DNA of 48,442 nt from Betaproteobacteria bacterium (lineage in GTDB: Bacteria > Pseudomonadota > Gammaproteobacteria > Burkholderiales > Methylophilaceae), in contig VGIC01000011.1 in NCBI GenBank assembly GCA_016867975.1, positions 1 to 48,442 of the forward strand, read 5' to 3'. Positions within the stretch are counted from its first letter, which is position 1. Each line of letters begins with the position of its first letter. Positions 451-35,193 of the stretch are shown piece by piece. Position numbers and translations under genes: made by a program. The notes beneath the pieces were generated by a model. It saw only the letters and a program-made list of their open reading frames with translations. It made no database searches and had not been told where the DNA came from.

Positions 451-593
451 GAGACTTTCGCAAAAGTGCTTATTGTGGATGAAGCATAAGGCGCACGGAA
501 TGCAGAAACTGAGATAGTATGGGTTATACAGCGAGGTTGCGAGTACCGCGTAACGCAGTGATTCGCCATAAGAAGTAGTTTTGCAAAGGTTTC
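451..593 (-). repeat. GAGACC-family miniature element, copy A (shortest complete copy)
   Basis: 143 bp, flanked by GAGACTTTCGCAAAAG and, at the other side, TTTTGCAAAGGTTTC. Read on the minus strand it has the left module (GCGAATCACTGCGTTACG), the CTCGCAACCTCGCTGTATA module, the CAGTTTCTGCATTCCGTGCG module and the right end (CATCCACAATAAGCAC). It lacks the central cassettes of the longer copies. Its left end lies 4 bp after the stop codon of the flavoprotein gene at 598-1845, in the same direction. The flanks AGTGC and AGCGT are not identical, so any target duplication has decayed. Confidence 0.85.
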
Positions 594-597
594 AGCG

Positions 598-1845
598 TTA
601 ATCAGCGACTTTTAGCCAAGTCAGAGCGCCTTTCCCTGCGGCATGACCGCTTGCAAAGCAGGCAGTGAGTAAATAGCCGCCAGTCGGCGCTTCCCAATCC
701 AGCATCTCTCCAGCACAAAATACGCCGGGCTTGTCACGTAGCATCTGGTGCACATCAAGCGCTTTAAACACAATGCCCCCGGCGCTGCTAATTGCTTCAT
801 CCAAGGGGCGTGTTGCAATGAGTTTTAGCGGTAATTGCTTGATGGCAGCGGCTAATCGTACTGGATCAGAAAAGTCTTGTTTTGAAACCAGTTCACGCAA
901 CAGCCCTGCTTTTACGCCTTTGATGCCAAGTCGGCTTTGCAGATGGCTAGATATTGAGCGCGATCCTCTAGGGTGAGCAATTTCGTGGGTGATGTGCTGA
1001 ATATCCTTGTGCGGAAGTAAATCCAAATAAATGACCGCTTTGCCTGTTGCATCTATGCTATTGCGTAGGTCGGCGGACATGGCATAAATCAGGCTACCTT
1101 CAATACCGTTTTCCGTGATCAGGCATTCACCTTGTTTCTGATGCTGAATCCCGCATGCATCCGAAAATGATAGGGTGATGGTTTTGAGAGGTTCTCCGGC
1201 AAATCGGCTACTGAAATGTTCGCTCCAAACGACCTCAAAACCACAGTTCGCCGGTTTAAGCGGTGCAACTTCAATGCCACGTTGTTCTAGCAAAGCTACC
1301 CATTTTCCGTCAGAGCCCAGCCGTGCCCAGCTGCCACCGCCTAAAGCCAGGATAACTGCATCTGCATAGACTGTAGTTTCTCCTTGGGGTGTCGAGAATA
1401 ACAGCTGATCATTGTGATCCCACCCCAACCAGCGATGGCGCATATGAAAACTCACGCCGGACTCTCGAAGGCGATGCAACCATGCACGTAACAGCGGTGC
1501 AGCTTTCATGTTACGTGGAAAAACGCGACCTGAGGAGCCGACAAAAGTTTCAATGCCGAGCTCATGGATCCACTCGCGCAGGGCGCTAGGGCTGAACTGA
1601 TTTAACAGAGGGGTGATAGCCTGTTGATGTACTCCATAGCGAGATAAAAATGGTTCGATAGGCTCAGCATGCGTGATATTCATGCCGCCTTTGCCCGCCA
1701 TTAAGAATTTTCGCCCAACCGTAGGCATGGCATCGTAGACATGCACCATGATATTTCCCTTGCTCAGTGCCTCTGCCGCCATCAGACCAGCCGGTCCGCT
1801 ACCGATGACTGCAACAGTGCGCAGAGTAGATGAGTGTGATGACAT
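598..1845 (-). CDS. HI0933-family (BaiN/RdsA-like) FAD-dependent oxidoreductase
   Basis: 415 residues. The N-terminus carries a dinucleotide-binding fold with the GSGPAG motif (Gly15, Gly17, Gly20) for FAD. It is followed by the VGRKFLMAGKGGMNITHAEP signature typical of the HI0933/YhiN family. The C-terminal part closes with a second FAD contact region (GVFCAGEMLDWEAPTGGYLL). Overall it resembles the subfamily often labelled TIGR03862. Members are soluble flavoproteins of uncertain substrate, and some relatives reduce steroid or bile-acid double bonds, but nothing here fixes the substrate. It is the last gene of the minus-strand block and ends against repeat copy A. Confidence 0.85.
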   Translation of the reverse strand: MSSHSSTLRTVAVIGSGPAGLMAAEALSKGNIMVHVYDAMPTVGRKFLMAGKGGMNITHAEPIEPFLSRYGVHQQAITPLLNQFSPSALREWIHELGIETFVGSSGRVFPRNMKAAPLLRAWLHRLRESGVSFHMRHRWLGWDHNDQLLFSTPQGETTVYADAVILALGGGSWARLGSDGKWVALLEQRGIEVAPLKPANCGFEVVWSEHFSSRFAGEPLKTITLSFSDACGIQHQKQGECLITENGIEGSLIYAMSADLRNSIDATGKAVIYLDLLPHKDIQHITHEIAHPRGSRSISSHLQSRLGIKGVKAGLLRELVSKQDFSDPVRLAAAIKQLPLKLIATRPLDEAISSAGGIVFKALDVHQMLRDKPGVFCAGEMLDWEAPTGGYLLTACFASGHAAGKGALTWLKVAD

Positions 1846-1866
1846 GGCTACTAAGAGAAATAAGGG

Positions 1867-1890
1867 CGGTAGCAGGATAGCACGCTACCG
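1867..1890 (-). other. Stem-loop downstream of feoB
   Basis: CGGTAGC at 1867-1873 pairs with GCTACCG at 1884-1890 around a 10-base loop, in the gap between feoB and the flavoprotein gene. No U-tract follows on the minus strand, so it is not a canonical intrinsic terminator. It may mark the 3' end of the feoAB transcript. Confidence 0.35.
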
Positions 1891-1954
1891 TAGATACTAC
1901 AACCGCTTGTGTTCCGCCAGATTTTAGCGCTTTTTGTGCCTGAGATCGTGAGAC

Positions 1955-3745
1955 TTAGAACCCCAGTGCCCTAGCACCTTGGTAGAATACAAAGCTCACA
2001 ACCCAGGCAAGACCCAGCGACCATGCGATTGATAGCCACATAAAGCCCGTGCTCTTAGACTCGTTTCTGAGGGTGGCAATCGTAGAAAGACACGGCGTGT
2101 AAATAAGGGTGAATAACATGAAACTCATGGCCTGTACCCAGTCAATCTGGGTGGTCATATGGGCCATCAGGGCGTCGCCTTGTAAGCCATAAATCACAGC
2201 GAGTGATCCGACGACTATCTCTTTTGCCACAAACCCAAAAATCAAGGCAATGGATAGTTCACGGTTAATGCCAATGGGGTCTAGGATGGGTGCAAACAAT
2301 AATCCTATTTGACCTGCGTAGGTGTCTACACTGGCAGGGGCTGCATTCGTTGGAAAATTGGTCATCAACCAGACCAGCACCACGCCGATGACGATAAATT
2401 TGCTGGCACGATTGAGAAAGTGCTTCACCTCTTGCCAGCCACGCAAGACAATTTGTCTGGGAGTCGGAAAGCGGTAAGGGGGGAGTTCCAGAATGAACGG
2501 TTCGGTGTTTTGGTATTGCCCTTGGAATAAAATCGCAGTAATGAACATGGTTAAGAAACTCATGACATAGAGCGTAAATAAAACCAGGGGCGCATGTTCG
2601 GCAGTAAACAATGCGGCTATCATGAAAATAAACACTTGCAACCGTGCAGAGCAAAGTGAGAACGGAATGACCAACATGGTAAGCAGTCGCATGGCGCGCG
2701 AACGCATCACGCGCGTGCCCATCAGCGCAGGTACGTTGCAACCGAAGCCCATGAGCATCATGACAAATCCGCGACCATCCAGCCCCATTCTGGCCATTAA
2801 TGCATCCATCAGAAATGCAGCACGAGAAAGGTAGCCACTGTCTTCAATCATGGACATCACCAGGAAGAACAGAATGATGATGGGGACAAATGCGGCAACA
2901 GTTGCTAACCCGTTATAGATCCCATCCAGCAGAAGTCCGCTCAACCATGCTGGACTACTGGAAAGGAGAGGTTCCAGTGTGCTCGTGCGCACGAGGTCGA
3001 GTAGCCATGCAATGCCCTCCTGTAATGGTTTTCCTGCTGTGAAGATGAAATCAAACATTGCATACATAGCAATAAAGAACAAAGGCAGTCCCAACCATTT
3101 GTGTAACAGTACTTGATCGATTTTATCGGTGGTGTTGTCATTCAGCATGACGGGGATTTGTACATTGTGTTGAATCAATGACTCCATCTCGCGTTCGATT
3201 TGGCTATCTTCTTGTAGTGCGTGATAGATTGTTTCAGGGGTTGGTGCGGTTTTGTGCTGATGTATAACGCTTGCTGCGGCCTGCAGCGCCTTCGGTAGGC
3301 CATCGCCATATTTTGCACTGATCTGGATGACTGGCATCTGCAACTCTTTTTCCAGATTTTCCGTGTCGACGGTAATGCCGACACGTTTGGCCTCGTCAGC
3401 CATGTTGAGCGTCAGTACAGTTGGCAAATTTAACTTTTTAATCTGCAATAACAGTGAAAGCTGGCGATCAATCTGTGTACTGTTGAGTAGCACTATCACC
3501 AAATCCACGGTATTGTGGGCCAGAAAATGACGTACGACCTGTTCGTCATCAGAAAACCCATGCAGGTCATAGATCCCTGGTAGATCTATCAGCTCTGCGA
3601 TGTGCCCCCCCATTAGAATCTTGGCGCTCATTAGGTCAACCGTGATGCCAGGCCAATTTCCAACTCTGGCTGAAGCGCCGCTAATGCGGTTAAATAGCGT
3701 AGATTTGCCAGTGTTTGGCATCCCTAATAGTGCAATACGTTTCAT
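1955..3745 (-). CDS. feoB: Ferrous iron transporter FeoB (short form)
   Basis: 596 residues from the ATG at 3745. The open frame extends to a TTG at 3769, but the ATG gives the normal FeoB start MKRIALLGMPNTGKST. The N-terminal G domain shows G1 (GMPNTGKST, residues 8-16), the G2-region threonine in GITVD, G3 DLPG and G4 NMAD. The membrane part has both Gate motifs: GFGCNVPALMGTR, and the IPFSLCSARLQVF region with its Cys. It also has the YTPCLSTIATLRNE segment near the C-terminus. It moves Fe2+ across the inner membrane with FeoA. At about 600 residues it is shorter than the roughly 770-residue enterobacterial protein. It follows feoA with a 54-bp gap and probably shares its Fur-controlled promoter. 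Confidence 0.93.
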   Translation of the reverse strand: MKRIALLGMPNTGKSTLFNRISGASARVGNWPGITVDLMSAKILMGGHIAELIDLPGIYDLHGFSDDEQVVRHFLAHNTVDLVIVLLNSTQIDRQLSLLLQIKKLNLPTVLTLNMADEAKRVGITVDTENLEKELQMPVIQISAKYGDGLPKALQAAASVIHQHKTAPTPETIYHALQEDSQIEREMESLIQHNVQIPVMLNDNTTDKIDQVLLHKWLGLPLFFIAMYAMFDFIFTAGKPLQEGIAWLLDLVRTSTLEPLLSSSPAWLSGLLLDGIYNGLATVAAFVPIIILFFLVMSMIEDSGYLSRAAFLMDALMARMGLDGRGFVMMLMGFGCNVPALMGTRVMRSRAMRLLTMLVIPFSLCSARLQVFIFMIAALFTAEHAPLVLFTLYVMSFLTMFITAILFQGQYQNTEPFILELPPYRFPTPRQIVLRGWQEVKHFLNRASKFIVIGVVLVWLMTNFPTNAAPASVDTYAGQIGLLFAPILDPIGINRELSIALIFGFVAKEIVVGSLAVIYGLQGDALMAHMTTQIDWVQAMSFMLFTLIYTPCLSTIATLRNESKSTGFMWLSIAWSLGLAWVVSFVFYQGARALGF

Positions 3746-3758
3746 GGCGTAAACTTTG

Positions 3759-3779
3759 TCATAGTGCAATAAGTTTCAT
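3759..3779 (-). other. Duplicated feoB start region forming a 6-codon minicistron
   Basis: On the minus strand ATGAAACTTATTGCACTATGA (3779 to 3759) repeats the first codons of feoB, ATGAAACGTATTGCACTATT, with one internal base change. In the upstream copy the frame closes at once (Met-Lys-Leu-Ile-Ala-Leu-stop). The two ATGs are 34 bp apart. This looks like a small tandem duplication of the initiation region. It could be inert, or a leader peptide whose translation feeds into feoB. Neither ATG has a strong Shine-Dalgarno. Confidence 0.6.
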
Positions 3780-3799
3780 AGTGAAGCGATGTGCTGCAC

Positions 3800-4021
3800 T
3801 CAGCCTATTTTAATGCGCTCAGCATCGATTCTACGCAAAATAATGTCAGTGGTGCCAAGGCGCACATGAATCGGGCCGTTAAAGATAGCCCGTCGCATGA
3901 CGCTTAAAGGTTTTCCTACGCGGAACCCCAGTGCGGCAAGGCGATGAAACAGTGATTCTTCTGCTTCGATTGCTGCAATCACAGCCTGTTGCCCAACTTC
4001 TAGATTAGATAAAGTATGCAT
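3800..4021 (-). CDS. feoA: Ferrous iron transport protein FeoA
   Basis: 73 residues with the SH3-like FeoA fold: the early LEVGQQAVIAAIE strand region, the central LFHRLAALGFRVGKPLSVMRRAIFNGP block and the closing strand with LRRIDAERIKI. The length is normal for the family. FeoA is a small cytosolic partner needed for full FeoB activity. It is the first gene of the feoAB pair and starts 15-35 bp downstream of a Fur-like site. Promoter and operator overlap, which suggests repression when iron is plentiful. Confidence 0.9.
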   Translation of the reverse strand: MHTLSNLEVGQQAVIAAIEAEESLFHRLAALGFRVGKPLSVMRRAIFNGPIHVRLGTTDIILRRIDAERIKIG

Positions 4022-4035
4022 GTATACAGAGGTGT

Positions 4036-4058
4036 AAATGATAACAATTCTTATTATT
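4036..4058 (-). promoter_or_regulatory. Fur-like box upstream of feoAB
   Basis: The minus strand reads AATAATAAGAATTGTTATC followed by ATT. This is an A/T-rich imperfect palindrome matching the NATWAT hexamer array of Fur sites (AATAAT, AAGAAT, then the inverted half TTATCATT). Its position directly before feoA, a classical Fur target, supports the call. Confidence 0.65.
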
Positions 4059-4099
4059 GCATAAAGATTGGCTGTGCGCGAACTATTTGATGGTATTTA

Positions 4100-4178
4100 C
4101 CCCCAGATTTCCCATAGGGCTTGAAATGAACCAGTTGGCATTCAAGTAGATGAAAGTCGCCTAATGGAAAATCTGGGT
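4100..4178. repeat. Nested palindromic element (REP/MITE-like), feoA-ppiC gap
   Basis: Outer arms CCCAGATTTCCCATAGGG (from 4102) and GCCTAATGGAAAATCTGGG (to 4177) pair with few mismatches. Inside them CTTGAA (4120-4125) pairs with TTCAAG (4141-4146). The whole element is about 78 bp and would fold as a long hairpin with a second internal stem. I saw no other copy in the window. The ends resemble terminal inverted repeats of a mobile element, but no target duplication is clear. Confidence 0.5.
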
Positions 4179-4179
4179 T

Positions 4180-4206
4180 AAAAATGAAAAAGCTCGCAAA
4201 GCGAGC
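4180..4206 (-). terminator. Intrinsic terminator after ppiC
   Basis: On the minus strand GCTCGC-TTT-GCGAGC is followed directly by TTTTTCATTTTT, a strong short GC stem with a U-tract. It lies about 40 bp past the ppiC stop codon and before the feoAB promoter region. Confidence 0.8.
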
Positions 4207-4219
4207 CTGAGGGGTGCAT

Positions 4220-4245
4220 CAAACCAATCCTAATGGATTGGTTTG
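4220..4245 (-). other. Stem-loop abutting the ppiC stop codon
   Basis: CAAACCAATCC (4220-4230) and GGATTGGTTTG (4235-4245) form a perfect 11-bp stem with a 4-base loop, one base from the ppiC stop. It has no U-tract of its own. It probably protects the mRNA 3' end or works with the terminator just downstream. Confidence 0.6.
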
Positions 4246-4246
4246 A

Positions 4247-5035
4247 TTACTTGTCCGCTTCGATTTTGGCTTTGCTGTGTAACTCTGCCATCATTTTTTC
4301 CAAGTTGCGTTGTTGCAGATTCTTTTGTAAGCCATCCTTAACTTTATCGTAAGGTAGTGGTTGTGCGACGCGCGTGTCCACCATTTTAATCACATGCCAG
4401 CCGAATTGCGTTTGTACTGGGCTTTGTGAGATACCACCTTTTATTAAGTTGGCGACAACATCACTAAACGGTTTGACCATAGTGGCAGGTGAGAACCAGC
4501 CTAAATCACCGCCTTTATCTTTAGAACCAGGATCCAGTGATTTTTCTTTGGCAATTTTCGCGAAATCACCGCCCTTGCCAAGTTGTGCAATGATGTCTTT
4601 GGCTTCAGCTTCTGTCTTGACTAAGATATGCATCGCACTAAACTCTTTTTCACCATAAGCTTTTTTATATTGTTCGTAGGCAGCCTTGGTGTCAGCGTCA
4701 GAAATAGGGTGTTTTTTTACATAGTCTTGTAAGTAGGTGTTTGTTAGAAGTTCGCGTCGCGCCAACTCTTCACGCGCAATGTAATCCGCTTGCTTATCCA
4801 GGCCTAATTTTTGAGCCTCTTGATATACAAGTTCAGAATCGATCAGTTTTGCGATGATGGCTTCTCTGACTTGGGCATCGACTTTTTGTCCTTTTGCTGC
4901 CGCGTCTTTGGCAATGAAGTCATAGACCGATTGCTTGATGGCTTTGCCGTTTACGGTCGCTATAGCGTCGGCAGCGTTAGCTGTTGGCGCCAATGACAAA
5001 ATCGCCAAAGTCAATAAAGTATGTGTCAGTTTCAT
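4247..5035 (-). CDS. Periplasmic parvulin-type peptidyl-prolyl isomerase
   Basis: 262 residues. A Sec signal peptide (MKLTHTLLTLAILSLAPTANA) should be cleaved after about residue 22. A helical N-terminal chaperone-like region follows, then one parvulin domain at about 132-220, with MHILVK, the GGDLGWFSP block and FGWHVIKM. This is the PpiC/PrsA/SurA-like layout. It should assist folding of exported proteins in the periplasm. It is the last gene of the yciB-yciI-bolA-ppiC run, and a pair of hairpins ends the unit. The 67-bp gap before it may hold its own promoter. Confidence 0.88.
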   Translation of the reverse strand: MKLTHTLLTLAILSLAPTANAADAIATVNGKAIKQSVYDFIAKDAAAKGQKVDAQVREAIIAKLIDSELVYQEAQKLGLDKQADYIAREELARRELLTNTYLQDYVKKHPISDADTKAAYEQYKKAYGEKEFSAMHILVKTEAEAKDIIAQLGKGGDFAKIAKEKSLDPGSKDKGGDLGWFSPATMVKPFSDVVANLIKGGISQSPVQTQFGWHVIKMVDTRVAQPLPYDKVKDGLQKNLQQRNLEKMMAELHSKAKIEADK

Positions 5036-5102
5036 GTGTAAATCCTCGTGAGTGCTAGATTAAATTGGTAAGTGGTAAAAGTGTTCAGGACAGTCTCCGA
5101 AA

Positions 5103-5363
5103 TCAGCTTTCATCAGGTGCGATTGCATGGATGCTGAGGGCGTGTATCCTATTAGGTATCAGATCGTGCAGGGCTTGGTAAATAAGGCGATGACGCATTA
5201 TCATTGATTTTTCACAAAAAAGCGAGCTGGTAATGGTGAGTCTGTAGTGCCCGCCACCGCCATTGCTCCGGTGTCCGACATGGTGCTGACTTTCATCAAT
5301 CAGTTCCATGGCGATAGGGGTTAGCGCCTGTAGTCGCTGCTGAATTTCTTCAATCACAGACAT
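5103..5363 (-). CDS. bolA: BolA family protein
   Basis: 86 residues with the BolA fold: N-terminal helix IEEIQQRLQAL, the strand carrying IDESQHHVGH, and the conserved late segment RHRLIYQALHDLI followed by IHALSIHA. The conserved His in the RHRLIY region is the usual ligand position for [2Fe-2S] clusters shared with monothiol glutaredoxins. Family members act in iron-sulfur trafficking and stress responses. It starts 6 bp after the yciI stop, so the two are almost certainly co-transcribed. Confidence 0.88.
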   Translation of the reverse strand: MSVIEEIQQRLQALTPIAMELIDESQHHVGHRSNGGGGHYRLTITSSLFCEKSMIMRHRLIYQALHDLIPNRIHALSIHAIAPDES

Positions 5364-5369
5364 GGATGC

Positions 5370-5669
5370 TTAGGGGAGCGTTTTTCTAAAAGGTTTCACT
5401 GTGACGTTGGCATAGACACCTGTGACCACAAAGGGGTCGTCAGATGCCCAGTTCTGCGCTTCTTCTAGATTAGCGAACTCGGCAACAATCAGGCTCCCAG
5501 AAAAGCCTGCGGCGCCGGGGTCGCTACTATCTATAGCCGGAAATGGCCCCGCCAGCAGCAGGCGTCCAGTATTCTGAAGCGCATTCAGTCTGGCCAGGTG
5601 CTCTGGTCTTGCAGCCAAGCGCTTTTCTAGGCTGTTAGGGGTGTCTTCCGCGACAATGGCGTACCACAT
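5370..5669 (-). CDS. YciI family protein
   Basis: 99 residues from the ATG at 5669, beginning [28 protein letters not shown]. That start overlaps the yciB stop as TAATG, which favours it over the longer frame that begins at 5786 inside yciB. The ferredoxin-like YciI fold shows the conserved Arg-Pro-x-His near residue 20, [11 protein letters not shown], and the [15 protein letters not shown] strand. The biochemical role is not settled, though relatives include dehydrochlorinases and putative active-site His-Asp enzymes. Linkage to yciB and bolA is common in betaproteobacteria. Confidence 0.85.
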
Positions 5670-6220
5670 TATTGGTGATCCTCTTTGTTGTCCTCTTTGG
5701 GTAAGTATTGACTGATGAACATGGTTTGCAAGATGATGAACGCAAATAGAATGCCAGTGATGCCGAATAGCTTGAAATTGACCCATGTATCCTGCGAGTA
5801 GTTATAGGCTACATAAAGATTGATAAAGCCAAGTGCGGTAAATAAGCCAGCCCATGCGATGTTCATCTTGGCCCAGACAAACTCAGGTAATTGAATCTGT
5901 GACTCCATCATTGCCTTGATTGGATTCTTATTGAATATGAATTGTGCACTTAGCAGAACTGTGGCAAAGAGCCAGTAGAGCACGGTCGGCTTCCACTCAA
6001 TAAATTTCGGGTCTTTAAGCAAAAGTGTAGCACCACCAAACACGGTAATAATGACACCGCTGATCAGTAGCATTTTATCAACTGAGCCGTGGCGTATTTT
6101 GACGTAGGCAATCTGGGCAAGAGTAGCACCAATAGCGACTGCGGTGGCGGCAAAGATGCCATACAATTTAAACGTGGCAAAAAACAGAATCACTGGAAAC
6201 AGGTCAAACAGAAACTTCAT
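5669..6220 (-). CDS. yciB: YciB/IspZ inner membrane septation protein
   Basis: 183 residues, strongly hydrophobic, with about five or six membrane spans. Hallmarks are the start [21 protein letters not shown], the KMLLISG span, the [19 protein letters not shown] block and [20 protein letters not shown]. YciB is an inner-membrane protein linked to cell envelope synthesis and septation. It heads the four-gene minus-strand run. The 350-bp gap before it contains repeat B and must hold its promoter as well as that of the divergent yciV gene. Confidence 0.9.
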
Positions 6221-6278
6221 ATAGGCTCATCAGGTTAGGTGGAAGCTTGCTAAAACAAATTTGAAACAATGGGTTAGA

Positions 6279-6508
6279 GCGTCTCTATAAATGCAGAGTT
6301 TTTAGTCGCAGTACTACCCGTACAGTACCTGTCCGTGGAATATACCAGCTAAAGTTGGTTATTCGCACACCAAAGGTGCAGCAGGGTTGCGACAATGCCA
6401 GTTGCGGTGCAGACCAGCTCGCGTAGCAACGTTAAGCCACGAAGTGGCGGCTGTAACCAAAAAACCGCGCAACGCAGTAATGCGCTAAAAATGTATTTAT
6501 AGAAGTGC
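6279..6508 (-). repeat. Element B: interior of the GAGACC family with different ends
   Basis: About 230 bp in the yciB-yciV gap. The interior, read on the minus strand, matches the other copies: CTGCGTTGCGCGGTTTTTTG, GCCGCCACTTCGTGGCTTAA, then GTTGCTACGC, and TATATTCCACGGACA followed by CTGTACGGGTA. The termini are not GAGACC. They are imperfect inverted repeats around TCTATAAAT (left GCGTCTCTATAAATGCA, right on the complement GCACTTCTATAAATACA). I could not find a convincing target duplication. The exact ends are uncertain by a few bases. Confidence 0.65.
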
Positions 6509-6576
6509 CCTTTAGCGTAAGTTGCTATTTTGCTATGATAGTCATCTATTCGCAAGGCGTAATTTAAACAGTTCTG

Positions 6577-7428: not shown

Positions 7429-7460
7429 CTTCTGGGCGCTTCTGTTAATTAAGAGATATT

Positions 7461-8090: not shown

Positions 8091-8101
8091 AAAGACACGG
8101 T

Positions 8102-19220: not shown

Positions 19221-19363
19221 ATGTGAAAAAAGCTAGTTGAAAAGGCTATAGGTTCAATTGATCCGATTCAGCATTATCGGTGATGTTCTGCCCATCTCCA
19301 ATCATTTTCCTCTGCTTTTTCTTAAAAAGTAAAATGTTTGTTAAGGATTGCATATCCCCTTCA

Positions 19364-19646
19364 GAGATCTTTGCAAGAGTGCGTATTGTGGATGAGGCGT
19401 ACCAGTGCTTGGCATGTCTGTAGAATATATGCGCTGAAGCGCATTATTCACACGCCAAAGGCGCACACCCGCATGGGGCGTCCCCAACCTCGCTAAATGC
19501 TGAAGCATTAAGTCGGTTGTGACGGAATGCAGAAACCGAGAAAACCAACGCAGTGTTTCGGCGTAGGCTAACCTTAAGGTTATGCCGTAACCAAAAAACC
19601 GCGCAACGCAACGATTCGCCACAAGAAGTGGTTTTGCAAAGGACTC
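19364..19646 (-). repeat. GAGACC-family miniature element, copy C, with target duplication
   Basis: 283 bp bounded by GAGATCTTTGCAAGAGTG and TTTTGCAAAGGACTC and flanked on both sides by CTTCA (19359-19363 and 19647-19651), an exact 5-bp duplication. On the minus strand it carries the GCGTTGCGCGG module, AACCTTAAGGTT hairpin, the GCCTACGCCGAAACACTGCG module, private hairpins (AATGCTTCAGCATT, GGGGACGCCCC) and the GCGCTTCAGCGC hairpin. The duplicated bases include the xseA stop codon (TGAAG on the coding strand). The left end begins 2 bp after that stop. Confidence 0.93.
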
Positions 19647-19648
19647 CT

Positions 19649-20854
19649 TCAGTGAGTGTTGGTAACGGAAGCCTCTGCGCTGCCATGTTGGAAGGTGAGC
19701 CTGACAGTGTCCCCAAGGCGTAGGTCTTGGCTGTTCTTGATGATGGCGCCAGAGTCGTTTTGAACGAGGGCATAGCCACGGGTCAGCACTGACTTAGGGT
19801 TAAGATGCGTCAGATTCTGGCTGAGTCGGGCCAAATTGAACTGCCAGTGGTTGAGTTGTTGCTGGACACCTCTGTTGAGGCGGTCATCAATTTGTGCCAG
19901 TTGCCGCTGCTGTTTCTGAATGTACTGCTGAGGTGAAATCAGTCTACGTATCAGATAATCGAGCGCCTGCACGTGCTGTGCAATCACAGTATTCATGGTC
20001 TTGTGCAGCTGCGATTCGAATTGATCCAGGCGATGGAATAGATATTCGTGTGAGGGTGTGGCCAATTCGGCTGCGGCTGTTGGGGTCGCGGCTCTGCTAT
20101 CTGCGACAAAGTCGCAAATGGTAAAGTCGGTTTCATGTCCTACGCCACTAATCGTTGGGATATTGCAGTTGGCAATGGCCCTGGCGACGGTCTCTTCGTT
20201 AAACTGCCATAAATCTTCGATGCTACCGCCACCACGACAAATGATCAGTACATCGCATTCAGCCCGTTCGCTGGCAGTGTTGATGGCTTTTACAATCAAT
20301 TGTGCCGCACCCTTGCCCTGCACAGGGGTCGGATAAATGATGACAGCGATATTGGGCATGCGTCGCTTGAGTGTGGTCAGTACGTCACGCAGTGCCGCTG
20401 CGTCGGCTGAGGTGACGATGCCAATCTGCCGTGGATGGGGAGGGATACGCTTTTTGCGATTGGCGTCGAACAAGCCTTCTAAGCTGAGTTCTTGTTTGAG
20501 CTTCTCGAATGCCTCAAATAGAGCGCCTAAGCCGGCACGTTGAATGAATTCTACGGTAAGCTGAAAATCACCGCGTGCTTCGTACAGCGTTACGGTGCAG
20601 CGCGCCTCGACTTTATCGCCTTCGCGCGGTGTAAAATCCACGTAGCTGTTACGCCCTTTGAACATCACGCAGCGTACTTGAGCGCTGGCATCCTTGAGCG
20701 AAAAGTACCAGTGACCGCTCGCTGCTCGCGTAAAGTTCGAGATCTCTCCAGAAACCCAAAAGAGAGGAAAACTCTGCTCCAGAACCTGGCGTGCCAAACG
20801 ATTCAGTTCGGTGACGGTTAATATCGGGGTAGAATTGGGGTTGAAATCTGCCAT
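19649..20854 (-). CDS. xseA: Exodeoxyribonuclease VII large subunit
   Basis: 401 residues. The N-terminal OB domain includes VSGEISNFTRAASGHWYFSLKD. The catalytic domain has the family blocks IGIVTSADAAALRDVL, ICRGGGSIEDLWQFNEE and ISGVGHETDFTICDFVADSRAATPTAAAEL. A helical region and a short C-terminal domain with LTRGYALVQNDSG follow. The E. coli protein is 456 residues, so the coiled-coil region here is shorter. With XseB (not in this window) it degrades single-stranded DNA. The stop codon lies inside the target duplication of repeat copy C, which has preserved it. Confidence 0.94.
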   Translation of the reverse strand: MADFNPNSTPILTVTELNRLARQVLEQSFPLFWVSGEISNFTRAASGHWYFSLKDASAQVRCVMFKGRNSYVDFTPREGDKVEARCTVTLYEARGDFQLTVEFIQRAGLGALFEAFEKLKQELSLEGLFDANRKKRIPPHPRQIGIVTSADAAALRDVLTTLKRRMPNIAVIIYPTPVQGKGAAQLIVKAINTASERAECDVLIICRGGGSIEDLWQFNEETVARAIANCNIPTISGVGHETDFTICDFVADSRAATPTAAAELATPSHEYLFHRLDQFESQLHKTMNTVIAQHVQALDYLIRRLISPQQYIQKQQRQLAQIDDRLNRGVQQQLNHWQFNLARLSQNLTHLNPKSVLTRGYALVQNDSGAIIKNSQDLRLGDTVRLTFQHGSAEASVTNTH

Positions 20855-22435: not shown

Positions 22436-22471
22436 TGCTCCATCCACAATAAGCACTTTTGTAAAGGTTTC
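22436..22471 (+). repeat. GAGACC-family element, right-end fragment F
   Basis: Only the right end remains: TGCTCCATCCACAATAAGCA followed by CTTTTGTAAAGGTTTC, which matches the right ends of copies A, D and E with three or four changes. The left part is missing. The AAAGG at 22463-22467 lies 9 bp before the ATG at 22477 and is the only good Shine-Dalgarno for the next gene. Confidence 0.8.
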
Positions 22472-25704: not shown

Positions 25705-25760
25705 ATGGGGCTTTGTAGGCGTGACGACTACAGGAGGTTCTGATTCCCGTGAATCAGAAA

Positions 25761-26027
25761 GGGACCTTTGCAAAAGTACTTCTTGTGGCGAATCACTGCG
25801 TTGCGCGGTACTCGCAACCTCGCTGTATACCGCATACTATGGCTTCGGCCGCTACGCTTAACATCGCTTCGCGAGTTAGCCTACGCCGAAACACTGCGTT
25901 GGTTTTCTCGGTTTCTGCGTTCCGTGCGCCTTTGTCGTGTGAATAATGCGCTTCAGCGCATATATTCCACGGACATGCCCTGTACGGGTAATGCTTCATC
26001 CGCAATAAGCACTTTTGCAAAGGTCTC
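25761..26027 (+). repeat. GAGACC-family miniature element, copy D, with target duplication
   Basis: 267 bp from GGGACCTTTGCAAAAGTACT to GCACTTTTGCAAAGGTCTC, flanked by exact AGAAA duplications (25756-25760 and 26028-26032). It holds the left module, CTCGCAACCTCGCTGTATAC, the GGCTTCGGCCGCTACGCTTA cassette with the CGCTTCGCG hairpin, the GCCTACGCCGAAACACTGCG module, GCGCTTCAGCGC, and TATTCCACGGACATGCCC. Its right end lies 6 bp beyond the hemN stop codon, which is on the other strand. Confidence 0.95.
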
Positions 26028-26033
26028 AGAAAG

Positions 26034-27482: not shown

Positions 27483-27535
27483 GACGATACTCCTAATTAG
27501 ATGCCGGATTCTCGCACTGAAACGGTTTCTCGTCT

Positions 27536-27549
27536 TTGATTCAGGTCAA
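27536..27549. promoter_or_regulatory. FNR-type box between hemN and fnr
   Basis: TTGATTCAGGTCAA matches the consensus with one change and differs from the ompW box only in its spacer. For hemN, a -10-like GAGAAT on the minus strand (27508-27513) would put the box near -41.5, an activating position. For fnr, a TATGAT at 27555-27560 would put it near -24, a position that fits autorepression. The box assignment is firm. The two promoter readings are inference. Confidence 0.75.
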
Positions 27550-27631
27550 AAGATTATGATTTTGATACGCGCTACTAGCGTCGTAAACGCGAAAGCGGTA
27601 TCCTTGAGTCCATTTATCTTATCGTATCCCT

Positions 27632-28363: not shown

Positions 28364-28369
28364 TTATTT

Positions 28370-29215
28370 ATGAGCTTGGATCAGCTTACCTCGACCGATC
28401 ACAACCGTGATTTCGTTGGTCTTCGATATGTTTATCCGGTTGTTTCGCGTCGTGCCGGTGGCGTTTCGATCGGCATTAACCTGAATGTGAATAATGCGTG
28501 TAACTGGCGTTGCGTTTATTGCAACGTGCCCAATTTAACCCGTGGCTCCCCCCCCGCAATTGAGCTGGATGTGTTGGAGCAGGAGTTGCGTGCTTTTTTG
28601 CGTGATGTGCAGCATGGTGATTTTATGCAGCGACATGTTCGTGAACAAGACCGTCAGTTAAAAGACATCGCTTTTTCTGGCAATGGTGAGCCCACCAGTG
28701 CCAAAGAATTTCCGCAGGTGATTTCGCTAGTTGAAAAAGTGTTGGCGGACGTGGGATTGTTGGGCTGCATTAAAGTAAGGCTGATCACGAATGGTAGTTT
28801 GGTAGACAGACCCGCGGTGCTGGAGGCTGTCAGCCATTTGTCACGATTGAATGGTGAAGTGTGGTTTAAGGTGGATGCCGGCAGTCAAGCCGGTTTTTCG
28901 CGGATCAATGATGTGATCTTAAATCCGCAAAGTCATCTACAGCGCCTGAGAAGTTGCGCTGCAGTTTGTCCGACTTTCATACAAACCTGCATGTTTGCCT
29001 TGGATGGCATGCCGCCTTGCGAAAAAGATATTCTGGCCTATTTGGATTTTGTGTCAGAGGTCAAGGATGTGATTGCTGGCGTGCATCTTTATGGATTGGC
29101 GCGATGGTCGATGCAGCCAGAGGCGGGACGCTTGAGTCGCCTGTCTGCTGAATGGCTTGAAGCGTTAGCTGGGCGTGTGCGCCAACTTGGTGTGCAGGTG
29201 TTTGTTAGTCCTTAG
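28370..29215 (+). CDS. Radical SAM protein of unknown function, linked to fnr
   Basis: 281 residues. The cluster motif is Cys44-x3-Cys48-x2-Cys51 (NNACNWRCVYCNVPN), followed by AFSGNGEPTSAKEFP, the glycine-rich SAM-binding strand, and ITNGSLVD. The family resembles COG0731-like proteins often annotated as wyosine-type enzymes, but that name is not justified in a bacterium. A further Cys cluster (SCAAVCPTFIQTC) in the second half could hold an auxiliary cluster or be structural. It lies 6 bp after fnr, so it is probably made with the oxygen regulator. Substrate unknown. Confidence 0.8.
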   Translation: MSLDQLTSTDHNRDFVGLRYVYPVVSRRAGGVSIGINLNVNNACNWRCVYCNVPNLTRGSPPAIELDVLEQELRAFLRDVQHGDFMQRHVREQDRQLKDIAFSGNGEPTSAKEFPQVISLVEKVLADVGLLGCIKVRLITNGSLVDRPAVLEAVSHLSRLNGEVWFKVDAGSQAGFSRINDVILNPQSHLQRLRSCAAVCPTFIQTCMFALDGMPPCEKDILAYLDFVSEVKDVIAGVHLYGLARWSMQPEAGRLSRLSAEWLEALAGRVRQLGVQVFVSP

Positions 29216-29218
29216 AGC

Positions 29219-30352
29219 CTATGCCAGTAAGCGCAGTTTCACTATTCGTGCTATCTCAGCCTCTTCATCGGCAGGGATGATGAGTATCGGTTTTGAACCG
29301 GCTGTTTGGATGGATGTCGCATTTTGCTGATTTGACGTCTCATCTAGTTGAAAGCCTAGCAGCCCTAACGGTTTGCAAATCAGTGTGCGAATTTCGGCAC
29401 TATGTTCACCGATACCGCCGGTAAAAATCAATGCATCTATCCCCCCAGTCTTAGCAGCGAATCCACCAATGCTTGCTCTGACTTGCCTTGCAAAAAAATC
29501 GACTGAGAATCTGGCGTTTTTGCTTGGGCTGGCAATCAACCTGGACATTTCGCTACTTTCGCCGCCAGATAAAGCTAGCAGACCCATTTGATGGAACACG
29601 AGGTCGGTCAGGTCTGTGGAGTTGTAACGCGACATCAGTTCCAGCATGATGCCAGGGTCCAAATCGCCGCTGCGCGTCCCCATCGGGATGCCACCCGCGG
29701 GGGTGTAGCCCATGCTGGTGTCCGTTGAACGTAAACTTTCTAGCAGGCACAGGCTGGCGCCGCTCCCAAGGTGCGCAATTACAATCTTACCGTGAGCTGT
29801 TTCGCCGAGTAGGTCGGGCAGCTGTCTGGCAATATGTGCATAGCTAAGGCCGTGGAAACCGTATCGCCGAATGTTCAGGTGATTGGGGATGGGCAGGCGG
29901 TAGGCGATTTCGGGGAGAGTAGCGTGAAACGCCGTATCGAAGCAGGCAAACTGGATTAGATGGAACTGCTTTGCCAATATTTCACTGCAATATTCAACGC
30001 CCAACAGGTTGCCCGGCATGTGTAGCGGGGCTAGGTGAATAATGCTTTTTAATCGTGAAATTTCGTCTGCATCAAGCAAACGCACTTCATCAGTCACCTC
30101 ACCGCCATGCACAAAACGGTGGCCAATCACTAACTGGGGTTTATGTTCAATCGATAGATAAGATGAATTCAAATCACGCTGGATATCATCTAGCAAGTCA
30201 GTAAAGGTTTGACGATGGTCATGATCACTCGGGTGCTCATAGTGATAGTGGGTGCGTTGCCCACTGGTCAGAAATAAGCTGGCTTTCAGAGTGGATGAGC
30301 CACAATTGAGGGTAAGGATGTCCACGTTGCTATCTAGTTCTGCCATGTCCAT
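29219..30352 (-). CDS. ackA: Acetate kinase
   Basis: 377 residues. Acetokinase signatures are the N-terminal [24 protein letters not shown], the [19 protein letters not shown] block, [13 protein letters not shown], and [10 protein letters not shown] with the [14 protein letters not shown] segment. It converts acetyl phosphate plus ADP to acetate plus ATP. Its start overlaps the end of xfp by 19 bp (an ATG two codons further in is an alternative), so the two are translationally coupled. Together they turn sugar phosphates into acetate and ATP. The phosphotransacetylase gene that often accompanies ackA is absent here. Confidence 0.94.
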
Positions 30353-32721
30353 TGGTCTTCTTCAGGCAGGTCCACGCCGTGTTCGTAGGCATAGCGGCAA
30401 CATTCGATCTGGCGGTTTCTCAGTGCCTCATGCGCATGCGCGCCTATCCCCCTTAGGGCAGGGACGCGGTTGATGGCATCCATGGCCAGGCTGAAGCGGT
30501 CGATCTGGTTTTGTATCGCCAGCTCCAATGGCGTGTTGATGCTCCCTTTTTCCTTGTAGCCGCGCACATGCAGGTTGTGGTGATTATGACGTCGGTAGGC
30601 GAGCCGGTGAATCAGATAAGGGTAGCCATGGAAATTGAAAATAATGGGTTTGTCTGTGGTGAACAGGTTGTCAAACTCATCATCGGTCAGGCCGTGGGGA
30701 TGTTCGCAGCTGGGGGTAAGTTTGTACAGGTCTACCACATTGATGAAGCGGATCTTCAGTTGCGGAAAATGTTGGCGTAACAGCAAGGTCGCAGCCAAGG
30801 ACTCTTTGGTTGGGATATCGCCTGCGCAGGCCATGACTAGATCGGGAGGTGTTCCATCGTCATTGCTGGCCCACTCCCAGATGCCAAGACCTTTAGTGCA
30901 GTGGTTGATGGCTGCATCCATGTTCAGATATTGCAGATGGTCTTGCTTGTCGCTGACAATGACATTGATGTAGTCAGTACTGTTCAGGCAGTGGTTAGCC
31001 ACGGACAACAGGCAGTTGGCGTCTGGGGGCAGATAAATGCGGGTAATTTCCGGACTTTTATTGACCACGATATCCAGAAAACCGGGATCCTGATGCGTGA
31101 AACCGTTGTGGTCTTGCCGCCAAACGGTAGAGGTGATCAGCATGTTGAGCGATGAGATCGGTGCGCGCCATGAAACGGCTTTGGACATAGCTAGCCATTT
31201 TGCATGCTGATTGAACATCGAATCGATAACATGAACGAAGGATTCATAAGTCGAGAAAAAGCCATGTCGGCCGGTCAGTAGATAGCCCTCCAGCCAGCCT
31301 TCTATCGTATGTTCAGACAGCATTTCCATGACGCGACCGTCAGGGGATAATTCGCCACCATCTGCATCTTCCGGTAAATAATCGGCCATCCACGTTTTTT
31401 TGCTGACTTCGTACACGTCATCTAGTTTGTTGGAGGTGTTCTCGTCAGGACCGAAGATGCGGAAGTTGCTCCCGTTCTGGCGCATGATATCGCGCAAGAG
31501 TTGCCCCAGTGGCTTTGTATTGGGGGATGCAGTCTGGCCGGGTTGATCGACCTTGACCGCGTAGTTTTGGTAATCCGGCATACGTAGTGATTTTCGTAGT
31601 AGCCCCCCATTGCCTTGCGGGTTGGCGCTCATACGGCGGGTGCCTTGCGGTGCCAGTGCCTTGAGTTCAGGGAGCAGTTTCCCGCTTGCATCGAAGAGGT
31701 TTTCAGGCTCGTAGCTACGTAGCCAAGCCTCTAGCGCCTTTAAGTGTTGCGGGTTGGTTTTGATATTGCCCATCGGTACTTGGTGTGCTCGCCAGAAGCC
31801 TTCGACCTTGTGACCATCCACTGTTTTTGGACCAGTCCACCCTTTAGGACTGCGTAGCACAATCATTGGCCAGAGAGGGCGGATGGGCTGATGGCGTTCT
31901 CGGGCCGTTTTTTGAATCTGTTTGATGCTTAATATGCAGTGTTCCAGCGTAGTGGCCATCGCTTGGTGCATGGTGTGCGGGTCGTCGCCTTCAACAAAAT
32001 AGGGTGTCCAGCCATAGCCCTTGAACAGACTTTCAAGCTCTTGATGTGAGATACGTGAAAGAAGCGTGGGGTTGTTGATCTTGTAGCCATTCAAGTGAAG
32101 GATAGGCAGTACAGCACCATCTCGAATCGGATTGAGAAATTTGTTTGAGTGCCAAGAGGTGGCTAGTGGCCCTGTTTCAGATTCGCCATCTCCCACCATC
32201 ACGGTGACAATCAGGTCTGGATTGTCAAAGGCTGCCCCAAAAGCGTGGGAAATGCTGTAGCCTAGCTCACCTCCTTCATGAATGGATCCGGGCATCTCCG
32301 GGGTGCAATGACTGCCGATACCACCTGGAAAAGAGAATTCTTTGAAGAAGTGTTGCATGCCTGCTTCATCTTCGCTCTTGTTGGGATAGACCTCGCTGTA
32401 AGTTCCTTCAAGGTAAATCGGACCAAGTACGCCGGGTGCACCGTGCCCGGGTCCAGCAAGGAAGATCGCATCCAGGTCGTATTGGTTGATGAGCCGATTC
32501 ATGTGGATGTAAGCAAAGCTCAGACCCGGACTGGAGCCCCAGTGTCCTAGCAGGCGCTGTTTGATGTGCTCGGCTTGCAGTGGCTTTCTGAGTAATGGGT
32601 TGTCGCGCAGATAAATCATGCCGGCGGACAAGTAGTTGCATGCACGCCAGTAACGATCGATGACATCCAATGCCTGAGGAGAGAGTTTTTGCTGGGAGGG
32701 GCTGTCGGTCGAGTTTGTCAT
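30334..32721 (-). CDS. xfp: Xylulose-5-phosphate/fructose-6-phosphate phosphoketolase
   Basis: 795 residues, a TPP enzyme. Recognisable blocks are [34 protein letters not shown], and the TPP/Mg2+ motif [19 protein letters not shown] with ILHLNGYKI. The second half has the pyrimidine-binding domain ([18 protein letters not shown] and [15 protein letters not shown]). It cleaves xylulose-5-P or fructose-6-P with phosphate to acetyl-P and a shorter sugar phosphate. In a methylotroph using the ribulose monophosphate cycle this gives a route from formaldehyde-derived sugar phosphates to acetyl-P. It is first in the xfp-ackA pair. A possible -10 (TATAAA, minus strand 32733-32738) lies just upstream. 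Confidence 0.95.
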
Positions 32722-32846
32722 AGTTGAGCTCTTTTATACAACATGTTCTGATCATACTAGAGACCTTTGCATGAATCAAAATTCGGCTGAGTTTTCGCTA
32801 AAATTACCAAAAACCGTCATTCCAGCCTACGGATGTGTTAAAGAGC

Positions 32847-32860
32847 TTGGTGAAAATCAA
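32847..32860. promoter_or_regulatory. Possible FNR-like half-match in the xfp / binding-protein gap
   Basis: TTGGTGAAAATCAA matches TTGAT-N4-ATCAA with one change. It lies 126 bp upstream of xfp and only 15 bp before the lipoprotein ATG. The spacing does not give a clean -41.5 promoter on either side, so this may be chance. It is listed because two firmer FNR boxes lie nearby and xfp-ackA would suit oxygen control. Confidence 0.3.
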
Positions 32861-32874
32861 GTACACTTCAGCTT

Positions 32875-34341
32875 ATGAAAAATGTCATGATGATTGCACT
32901 TGTTTGCTGCTTTTTATGGGCTTGCGACCAGCCAATGCACACTGGTCGAGTAGATGTGCCGTTGCGTTTTTCCGTCGCACAGATGCCGTTGAATCTCGAT
33001 CCGCGCTACGCCACGGATGCGGCCTCAGCGCGTCTGAATCGCCTGATCTATCAGGCTTTGGTTGATTTTGACGCGGCGTCCAGGCCTGTGCCTAAATTGG
33101 CGCATTGGACCAGCCCTAATCCCCTTGAGTATCGCTTTACATTGAATGCCGCCCCCCCTCCATTTCATCATCAGTTGCCACTGACTGCAGAAGACGTTAA
33201 AGCGACTTATGATTCTTTAATCGGGCTTAAAGATTCGCCTCATGCGGCAGAGTTTGGGCATGTCGCCAGTATCGAGCTGGTGGATTCGCATACGTTGGTG
33301 TTTCATCTTAAGCAGCGTGATGTGCATTTTCCTGAAAAGCTGATTATTGGCATCCTGCCCAAAGATCTTATTTTGAAAAGGCATGACTTTTCTCGTGCGC
33401 CTGTCGGCAATGGACCTTTGCAGTTTGTGAGTTGGCACAATACACTGACGTTTAAAAGACGACAGGATGACCAGGTCATCACGCTCACTGAGGTGAGGGA
33501 TCCCACAGTGCGCGTACTCAAACTGTTGCGCGGTGAGGTGGATTTGCTACAGGGAGACTTGCCTCCAGAGTTAGTGGCTTATTTGGAAAAACAGCCAGAA
33601 ATTACAGTGAAATCAAGTGTCGGTGCTAATTTCTCTTATCTTGGACTGAATCTGCAGGATGCCATGTTGTGCAATATCAAGGTGAGGCAGGCGCTGGCGC
33701 ATGCTATCGACCGCAACGCCATTATCGCCCAAGTGATGGTCAAGGAAACTCGTGCTGCCTCGGTCATTTTGCCGCCTGAGCACTACGCAGGAAATCCAGC
33801 GCTGGAAGCTTACGTGTACGATCCACAGCGGGCTAGGCGATTGCTTCAAGAGGCTGGTATAAGCTTACCGCTTAAGTTGGTGTACAAAACGTCTACAGAT
33901 GCACAGCGAGTGCGGCTGGCTACCATTTTGCAGGCGCAAATGAAACCAGTCGGAATCAATTTGGAGATTCGCAGTCTCGACTGGGGTACGTTCTTTGACG
34001 ATGTGAAACATGGGCAGTTCCAACTGTTCGGATTGACTTGGGTCGGGATCAGCACCCCCGAAATCTATAGCAAAGCCTTTGGTTCAAATCAATTCCCGCC
34101 ACACGGATTTAATCGTGGACATTTTGTAGATCCCGTGTTGGACAGCTTGCTGGAAAAAGAAGAATGGACAGCGGCAACAGCGAGGATCAATAGGCAATTA
34201 CCCTACATCCCGCTTTGGTATGAAGGGCAGTTTGTTGCCTATGCTCAGGGGATAACAGGTTATGCGCCTAAGGCGGATGGTAACTGGGATGATTTAGCGG
34301 TGATAACGAAGTCAGCTACAATAAGCAACTATGCGCATTGA
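32875..34341 (+). CDS. Peptide/muropeptide-type ABC transporter substrate-binding lipoprotein (SBP_bac_5)
   Basis: 488 residues. A lipoprotein signal peptide ends in LWAC with Cys17 as the lipidated residue, so it sits in the periplasm on a lipid anchor. The family-5 binding fold shows MPLNLDPRYATDAASARLN, VDFDAASRPVPKLA, LPLTAEDVKATYDSL and the VRQALAHAIDRNAI block, as in OppA, DppA and MppA. It is the first gene of a five-gene plus-strand unit and overlaps the next gene by 11 bp. The presence of a YkuD enzyme and NagZ in the unit suggests that it binds murein peptides. The ligand is not fixed by sequence. Confidence 0.85.
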   Translation: MKNVMMIALVCCFLWACDQPMHTGRVDVPLRFSVAQMPLNLDPRYATDAASARLNRLIYQALVDFDAASRPVPKLAHWTSPNPLEYRFTLNAAPPPFHHQLPLTAEDVKATYDSLIGLKDSPHAAEFGHVASIELVDSHTLVFHLKQRDVHFPEKLIIGILPKDLILKRHDFSRAPVGNGPLQFVSWHNTLTFKRRQDDQVITLTEVRDPTVRVLKLLRGEVDLLQGDLPPELVAYLEKQPEITVKSSVGANFSYLGLNLQDAMLCNIKVRQALAHAIDRNAIIAQVMVKETRAASVILPPEHYAGNPALEAYVYDPQRARRLLQEAGISLPLKLVYKTSTDAQRVRLATILQAQMKPVGINLEIRSLDWGTFFDDVKHGQFQLFGLTWVGISTPEIYSKAFGSNQFPPHGFNRGHFVDPVLDSLLEKEEWTAATARINRQLPYIPLWYEGQFVAYAQGITGYAPKADGNWDDLAVITKSATISNYAH

Positions 34342-34813
34342 AATATCCATTTCTCAACAGACTTTAACGCTTTTCAATCACTTGGGTAGTGTGAAAGCCA
34401 AGTACAGTGTTTCAACTGCGACCAATGGCATTGGCTGCGAGAAAAATAGCGGCTGTACACCATTAGGCGAGCATATCATCCGTGCCAAGATTGGCGTGGA
34501 TGCACCGCTCAATGCGGTGTTTGTGGGGCGACGGGTGACGGGTGAGATTTGGTCGCCAGAATTAGCTGCGCAATTTCCTGAGCGCGACTGGATATTAACG
34601 CGTATCTTGTGGCTTTCCGGCAGAGAAATAGGCAAAAATCGGCTGGGGAATGTTGATTCGATGCAGCGCTATATCTATATTCATGGCACACCAGATGCTG
34701 AGCCGATGGGGGTCCCCTGTTCGCATGGCTGTGTGCGGATGCGCAACGCCGACGTAGTCCAGCTGTTCGATCAGGTGGATATTGGCACCTCTGTGCAGAT
34801 TGCCGTTGATTGA
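34331..34813 (+). CDS. YkuD-domain L,D-transpeptidase/carboxypeptidase without signal peptide
   Basis: 160 residues, a single YkuD domain. The catalytic segment is HGTPDAEPMGVPCSHGCVRM, with the Cys nucleophile in SHGCVRM and the upstream His. The protein starts directly with the first strand (MRIEISISQQTLTLF) and has no signal peptide or membrane anchor, so it should be cytosolic. Cytosolic YkuD proteins in other Gram-negatives act as L,D-carboxypeptidases in peptidoglycan recycling, removing the terminal D-Ala from tetrapeptides. That function fits its neighbours here better than wall crosslinking. It overlaps the binding-protein gene by 11 bp. Repeat copy E begins 2 bp after the stop. Confidence 0.85.
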   Translation: MRIEISISQQTLTLFNHLGSVKAKYSVSTATNGIGCEKNSGCTPLGEHIIRAKIGVDAPLNAVFVGRRVTGEIWSPELAAQFPERDWILTRILWLSGREIGKNRLGNVDSMQRYIYIHGTPDAEPMGVPCSHGCVRMRNADVVQLFDQVDIGTSVQIAVD

Positions 34814-34815
34814 TG

Positions 34816-35193
34816 GAGACCTTTGCAAAACTACTTCTTATGGCGAATCACTGCGTTACGCGGTTTTTTTGCTACGGCCGCCGCTATGCGGCTTAACATT
34901 GCTACGCAATATGAGCCTACACCGCAACTACGTTGTGCGAGCTTTGAGCTACGCTCAAATGCCTGCCAAAAACAAATTCGCAACCTCGCTGTATACCGCA
35001 TACTATGGCTTCGGCCGCTACGCTTAACATCGCTTCGCGAGTTAGCCTACGCCGAAACACTGCGTTGGTTTTCTCGGTTTATGCGTTCTGTGCGCCTTTG
35101 TCGTGTGAATAATGCGCTTCAGCGCATATATTCCACGGACATGCCCTGTACGGGTAATACTTCATCCACAATAAGCACTTTTGAAAAGGCCTC
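34816..35193 (+). repeat. GAGACC-family miniature element, copy E, inserted inside an operon
   Basis: 378 bp from GAGACCTTTGCAAAACTACT to GCACTTTTGAAAAGGCCTC, flanked by exact TGATG duplications (34811-34815 and 35194-35198). It carries all modules of copy D plus an extra 111-bp stretch with hairpins CCGC-TAT-GCGG, ATTGC-TAC-GCAAT and GAGCTTTGAGCTACGCTC. The target was a TGATG stop/start overlap: the upstream duplicate keeps the YkuD stop and the downstream one keeps the permease start. The AAAAGG near its right end is the permease ribosome-binding site. Confidence 0.95.

Follow-up and report, generated by a model that had tools for sequence, protein, structure and literature searches.

The 48,442-bp stretch of DNA analyzed here (the window) is contig 11 of the draft genome of a Methylotenera-group bacterium (the home genome, G000; 1.56 Mb in 44 contigs, 92.7% complete), and it carries a dispersed family of short elements which, judged by their sequence features, are real, mobile miniature inverted-repeat transposable elements (MITEs) of IS5 type. 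The reading proposed in the present work, to which a probability of roughly two in three is assigned, is that these elements represent an IS5-type MITE chassis with exchangeable arms which is mobilised in trans. In such a chassis, two arms of about 36 bp that bear the terminal inverted repeats (TIRs) would flank a conserved core of about 70 bp that folds on itself, and the arms would set both which IS5-type transposase moves the element and the length of the target duplication, which would be 5 bp for arms with GAGACCTTTGCAAAA tips (“A ends”) and 4 bp for arms with GGGCACTTCTATAAAT tips (“B ends”). Copies within one genome would swap cores among the arm classes by recombination, most likely through gene conversion or crossover in the core and the subterminal modules. 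Extra hairpin cassettes would insert into the core at a small number of positions and afterwards move along with it. The unusual part of the proposal is the presence of one structured core common to different ends.

One core under different ends

The cassettes carried by the window's elements often lie between B ends when they occur elsewhere in the home genome. Counts for this genome refer to 232 kb of its sequence taken around matches, with element ends set by pattern and not by their flanks. Twenty-eight B-ended pairs were found, and an exact 4-bp duplication, mostly AT-rich, flanks 13 of them, including one poor pair (C21:2694). Matches of at least 40 bp and at least 90% identity between A- and B-ended copies number 68, the longest extending over 354 bp at 94%. 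When modules are defined by strict motifs, 34 of 44 elements carry two or more (13 A, 21 B), and the order S1-m3-m4-m5-m6-m6b-m7 is kept in all 34, in agreement with an earlier sequence-only reading of the window, which had described central cassettes in a fixed order. Two or three elements, including C16:32922 and C6:46968, seem out of order by a looser motif set, but that set gave doubtful matches and the strict set was used for module order.

The core extends well beyond the home genome. A motif of 28 bp, taken from the core of the 143-bp element and searched for in 399 genomes of the order, is present in 21 of them and in 14 of 159 genera, and single genomes hold as many as 34 copies; the reversed pattern, used as a control, gave no match. 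TIRs were found for 44 of the 65 distinct core matches analyzed, which came from 30 loci and a further 40 among the matches listed per genome. The core of about 70 bp lies 35-39 bp inside the end in 39 of these 44 elements (20-60 bp being allowed), the element is 140-147 bp long in 32, and a duplication of 3-5 bp is present in 22, its length being 4 bp in 15 of the 22, with YTAR fitting nine of those 15. About nine named classes and three single cases account for the tips (examples are CAGGCYGTTGAAAAAC, GGAAACGCTGAA, GGAAAYGCTGATTAA, GAAACCCCTGCGAAAC and GAGCTTGTGAAAAA), and the home genome alone holds four end classes, A, B and two others. The sequence-only reading had described a single modular family with one set of ends; the modular build stands, but the ends themselves vary, because the cassettes also occur with B ends and the core occurs with about nine end classes.

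Exchange of cores among arm classes within a genome was tested by comparing the identities of cores and arms in 42 short elements, one B-ended row with a wrongly set right end being excluded. Elements of different class in the same genome have a mean identity of 89.0% in the core and 51.4% in the arms (46 pairs); elements of the same class in different genomes, 89.0% and 84.5% (78 pairs); and elements that differ in both respects, 75.1% and 48.5% (711 pairs). For the 42 core bases outside the search motif the corresponding core values are 86.4%, 87.0% and 67.3%.

In a survey of 72,556 plasmid records, a single one, a conjugative plasmid of Nitrosomonas sp. sh817, holds a full copy. This copy has 81.1% identity to the query and scores 88.7 bits with the core model, and an A-ended query covers the same Nitrosomonas site over 62%. 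No copy was found in phages. A separate 89-bp element with A tips and, by eye, a CCTTA duplication is present in Nitrosomonas sp. Nm132 (L155, 2770-2858).

Hairpin structure

Covariation in the core was evaluated with 41 of 76 core sequences, those with cassettes in the core or with length changes being excluded. Eight of ten pairs are doubly changed, and doubly changed cells number 68 where shuffles give 24.3. Such counts are raised by kinship, and they can also arise when quasi-palindromes are corrected by template switching. The central stem is 100% paired, while the outer helix is weaker (72.4%). For the m7 module, the 28 of 41 instances that are 39 nt long give 27 doubly changed cells against 5.2 in shuffles, and the same qualifications apply. 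A 378-bp copy in the window folds more stably than shuffles as RNA (z -3.86) and less clearly so as DNA (z -2.56). Rfam gave no match in the window at gathering scores and none at E ≤ 0.05 in six loci.

Copies in the window

At up to three mismatches, GAGACCTTTGCAAAA matches the window ten times against a shuffle mean of 1.99, and none of 100 shuffles reaches ten. Eight of the ten are both ends of four complete copies, one is a fragment, and one (32760) is unpaired. These four copies and the fragment had been delimited in the sequence-only reading, and on re-reading the sequence all of the coordinates hold. Strands given below follow the direction of module order from S1 to m7; the fragment and the duplications carry no strand.

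The copy at 451-593 (minus strand) is the basic 143-bp form, consisting of arms and core without extra cassettes, and is the only complete copy without an exact duplication. The others are a 283-bp copy at 19364-19646 (minus strand), with modules S1-m4-m5-m6-m6b-m7, and a 267-bp copy at 25761-26027 (plus strand), with modules S1-m3-m4-m5-m7, an m4 hairpin cassette of the form GCTTAAC-stem-GTTAGCCTACGCCG at 25856-25888 (plus strand), and an m7 hairpin module of the form GTGTGAATA-stem-TATTCCACGGACA at 25937-25975 (plus strand). Last comes the 378-bp copy at 34816-35193 (plus strand), which has the strict modules S1-m3-m4-m5-m7, to which looser motifs add m1, m2 and m8; its m4 hairpin lies at 35022-35054 and its m7 hairpin at 35103-35141 (both plus strand). 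The fragment, a single A end of 36 bp, lies at 22436-22471. A relative that had been overlooked is the B-ended element at 6277-6510 (minus strand), which has GGGCACTTCTATAAAT-like ends, the left with three mismatches, modules S1 and m7, and no exact duplication at its flanks. It lies upstream of a PHP-domain gene, and a 115-bp stretch of it is 86% identical to an A-ended copy found elsewhere.

The R1 core model, which was built from relatives including near kin, matched three of the five complete A- and B-ended window elements at E ≤ 0.5. The match is strong for 451-593 (487-558, 77.5 bits, E 1.5e-16, the model reading the opposite strand), lower for 25761-26027 (25796-25871, 32.4 bits, E 1e-5), and only 16.9 bits (E 0.054) for 34816-35193 (35009-35099); at the same threshold 19364-19646 and 6277-6510 have none. 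The B-ended element of locus L096 scores 84.8 bits, but its core (as L400) sat in the alignment from which the model was made.

Target duplications, recent movement and an empty site

Flank comparison shows exact 5-bp duplications at the three remaining complete copies, as the sequence-only reading had described: CTTCA at 19359-19363 and 19647-19651, the right copy including the stop codon of the gene for the large subunit of exonuclease VII (19649-20854, minus strand); AGAAA at 25756-25760 and 26028-26032; and TGATG at 34811-34815 and 35194-35198. Eleven complete A-ended pairs are present in the home genome, and exact 5-mers at four of them, including these three, have a binomial probability of 3e-10; at four further copies the flanks agree, by eye, at four of five bases. 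Other members of the genus have exact 5-mers at nine of 22 A-ended pairs. The window elements are thus short and multicopy, with TIRs and target duplications and without a transposase gene, which bears out their earlier description as non-autonomous.

They had also been called recently mobile. This is strongly borne out in a relative, G007, where 12 compared 143-bp copies have a median pairwise identity of 97.9% (lowest 88.1%), and the family has therefore moved recently in that genome; it is weakly borne out in the home genome, where the best matches among A-ended copies have identities of 67-97%. The copy number in G007 is probably underestimated, because six of its contig ends (L118, L131, L132, L138, L143 and L146) fall inside an A-ended element.

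The 378-bp copy splits a junction at which the stop of a YkuD/ElsL-type gene (34331-34813) overlaps the start of a permease gene as TGATG. The left copy of the duplication supplies the TGA stop and the right copy the likely ATG start (35196), and the duplication keeps both genes intact. The YkuD/ElsL-type gene is found in 50 of 52 genus genomes; the pair is adjacent on one strand in all 29 relatives whose loci were compared, and none of the 29 has an A or B end in the gap. Three of these loci (L345, L356 and L372) have a tight junction with a single TGATG, as expected before insertion; in the others the stop differs or the gap is longer, reaching 276 bp at most. Since the joined flanks of the 378-bp copy align with the three tight junctions at only 67-70% identity, the comparison is one between species. 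An orthologous empty site without a clean single 5-mer had been named as an observation that would speak against transposition; at the one locus compared, the single 5-mer is present. Many relatives have other inserts of 61-276 bp at this junction (L345-L373), some starting like the GTCATTCTGAACGAAGTGAAGAATCC repeat, and the junction is perhaps a hotspot for repeats.

Candidate transposases

The TIR of ISNme1, an insertion sequence (IS) of the IS5 family from Neisseria, is printed as GAGACCTTTGCAAAA in an excerpt of PMC4596501, and the 15-bp A tips are identical to the printed tips. An IS with both A tips, flanked by a 5-bp duplication (GGCCT), occurs in an IMG/VR contig (L256) and encodes a transposase of the IS5 type (NF033581). 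The earlier impression that the ends resemble those of some IS5-type elements is thereby supported. Two further IS copies with A tips occur in L223, without a duplication. Within the genus, only one of 52 genomes (G073) has related transposases, with three matches at 34-37% identity; two of the three are intact, both are NF033581, and both adjoin A-like ends. The ends are GAGACCTTTGCACGAA for one IS, with a TAATT duplication seen by eye, and AAGACCTTTGCAAAAGC for the other, of which a single end is visible before the contig ends. The duplication thus has the same length, 5 bp, in autonomous IS (GGCCT, TAATT) and in the MITEs (four of 11 home copies).

The absence of a family transposase from the window had been noted in the sequence-only reading, and in the home genome two Pfam families and one IS protein gave no match. 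Because of this, the putative helper for the A-ended elements is placed by analogy with those relatives, and the movement would be in trans. The viral-contig scan found no exact match to a longer A tip. The B arms would also be served by an IS5-type transposase; one 1,569-bp candidate with B ends has no transposase-like frame. Viral-contig scans for two other end classes covered 64 and 24 stretches and gave no convincing IS. In L040, close to C9:24981, the sequence that comes after a lone A end is similar to a stretch beside a DDE_Tnp_1 frame, presumably IS1380-like, in L151 of G007; the lone end is possibly a remnant.

The m4 cassette

The m4 hairpin, as an exact pattern, occurs in 11 of 300 genomes of the order and in 10 of 135 genera. 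Outside the genus, direct duplications of neighbouring DNA flank 16 of 23 distinct m4 sites (four of the 16 belonging to one tandem array) against one of 81 control points. Read on the opposite strand, m4 is a GTAG followed by a stem-loop, which is the terminal tag that defines GTAG-tagged repetitive extragenic palindromic (REP) sequences. In an excerpt of PMC3733652, such REPs are described as forming clusters that are repeated together with pieces of the adjoining DNA, and as lying near the 3' ends of open reading frames. Within the cores listed, m4-like sequence follows CCGAGA (for example L409, L429 and L431) or GGGAGCGA (L392, L394 and L420), and the entry points in cores across the order are, by eye, the same as in the window's genus.

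These observations raise the question of whether cassette gain is a matter of REP biology, in which GTAG-tagged palindromes moved by putative REP-associated (RAYT-type) tyrosine transposases insert into MITEs. The tag and the duplicated flanks argue for it, while m2, m6 and m7 have no evident GTAG tag, and the chances are judged to be even; such insertion would be compatible with the exchange of arms. The tandem array lies at the 3' end of a gene in a genome of another family (L088, 1413-2209); its 145-bp unit, which joins the gene's 3' end to an m4 hairpin, is repeated 5.5 times. In several Burkholderiales genera (L314-L343) m4 hairpins lie between duplicated stretches of neighbouring DNA that include apparent tRNA segments.

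Weighing the alternatives

Several observations weigh against an exchangeable-arm chassis. Exact duplications accompany only four of the 11 A-ended copies in the home genome, and that genome, as a draft that is 92.7% complete, contains no transposase detectable by PF01609, PF05598 or the one IS protein; an IS with B ends was found neither in 11 stretches of viral sequence nor in nine loci of the genus. The TIR finder let the core lie only 20-60 bp inside the ends and favoured duplications, and copies outside the genus were found through the core motif, which inflates core identity. The pairs behind the mean identities are not independent, and the end classes were assigned by eye. The count of different pair types in the core is no higher than in shuffles (14 against 14.5), and a simple 141-bp B form in relatives (L306-L311) has no match to the core model. 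Element by element the exchange test is mixed: 24 elements have partners of both kinds, and the core closest to theirs belongs to another class of the same genome in eight cases and to their own class in a different genome in 13, with three ties, so that cores appear to keep some class ancestry and also to cross classes.

The 13 elements of the last kind speak for plain divergence without exchange, in which one old MITE lineage would have kept a structured core while its arms drifted along with diverging IS5-type transposases. The end classes do look, by eye, like variants of IS5-type tips, and covariation points to structural constraint on the core. Drift of this kind nevertheless sits poorly with the mean core identities, which are 89.0% both for different classes of one genome and for a single class across genomes, and only 75.1% for pairs differing in both; with the 354-bp stretch of A and B core that is 94% identical in the home genome despite different tips; and with the C4/C19 pair, which approaches the case of one strain with near-identical cores under different arms and a sharp breakpoint. 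Divergence without exchange is accordingly considered unlikely, at perhaps one chance in four. A much more remote alternative is that each class is an ordinary MITE formed by internal deletion of its own IS, and that the shared middle was captured independently as a common repeat. Within the order, the m4 cassette is indeed also found apart from such elements, but the length of about 143 bp and the arm-core spacing of about 36 bp recur across most classes and would not persist under independent capture.

The elements could instead be a structured RNA or regulatory hairpin selected at gene 3' ends and mobile only secondarily, which is improbable, though less so than independent capture. Covariation in the core and m7 is in its favour, as is placement: by crude gene calls, a stop codon is no more than 12 nt away for eight of 13 A and for 11 of 26 B elements, against 9.5% of window intergenic bases per side (tail probabilities of 9e-4 for A and 5e-3 for B, if the two sides give 19%). 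An insertion that duplicates a stop is easily tolerated, however, and selection may therefore suffice to explain the placement, while correction of quasi-palindromes could mimic the covariation. There is moreover no Rfam match, the element is absent at the orthologous site in all 29 relatives, and duplications and TIRs mark transposition. Two other candidates were rejected: integron attC sites, since their motif fits one side only, and the nesting of one MITE in another, since the tips differ on both sides beside homologous subterminal stretches.

An exchangeable-arm chassis remains the preferred reading. A broader claim, put forward tentatively and held to be somewhat less probable than its negation, is that the core, rather than the ends, defines the element: a structured chassis of about 70 bp that would repeatedly change arms and thereby switch among many IS5-type transposases (with 4-, 5- and, on a few copies, 3-bp duplications), spread across Burkholderiales families and at least one conjugative plasmid, and collect hairpin cassettes at a few sites.

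Significance

The usual practice is to assign a MITE to the IS with which it shares its ends. If a single body can bear the ends of several IS, then MITE families are mosaics whose history has to be traced through the core, and a MITE whose helper is lost can survive by turning to another, which could explain MITEs in genomes without a matching transposase, such as the home genome. An element defined by its core would represent modular evolution in a bacterial parasite of parasites, and the covarying core offers a concrete handle on what the middle of a MITE does.

Comparison with known systems

BOX elements of Streptococcus pneumoniae are likewise modular repeats whose central units come and go, but their end modules are fixed, and they are not known to exchange ends between transposition systems. 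Clusters of BOX elements are mentioned in an excerpt of PMC10969869. A topic search of the literature gave no title on end-swapping bacterial MITEs among the matches listed; a text search for the tips gave PMC4596501 and an unrelated primer, and the titles listed for cassette and core strings are off topic, text search seldom finding sequences. RU elements, as described in part of PMC2759123, are no closer match.

The ATR elements of Neisseria meningitidis, proposed to derive from ISNme1, resemble the present elements in tip type (GAGACCTTTGCAAAA) and MITE build, but a single parent IS is named for them (PMC4596501, in part). The same excerpt describes BrickBuilt of Porphyromonas gingivalis, a MITE with near-identical tips (GAGACCTTTGCA) that has trapped a repeat; its inner part, however, is a 23-nt tandem repeat and its duplications vary in length, and other P. 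gingivalis MITEs share its tips and not its insides, the reverse of the present case. Tn3-derived inverted-repeat miniature elements (TIMEs), as presented in part of PMC4133298, are mobilised in trans, generate 5-6 bp duplications and give rise to mosaic derivatives, as is proposed here, but they are 262 bp long with 38-bp Tn3-type repeats, and the mosaics are composites made by TIME ends. Finally, GTAG-tagged REPs (PMC3733652, in part) resemble m4 in the GTAG, the stem-loop and the reiteration with flanking DNA, and differ in that the hairpin is here built into a MITE.

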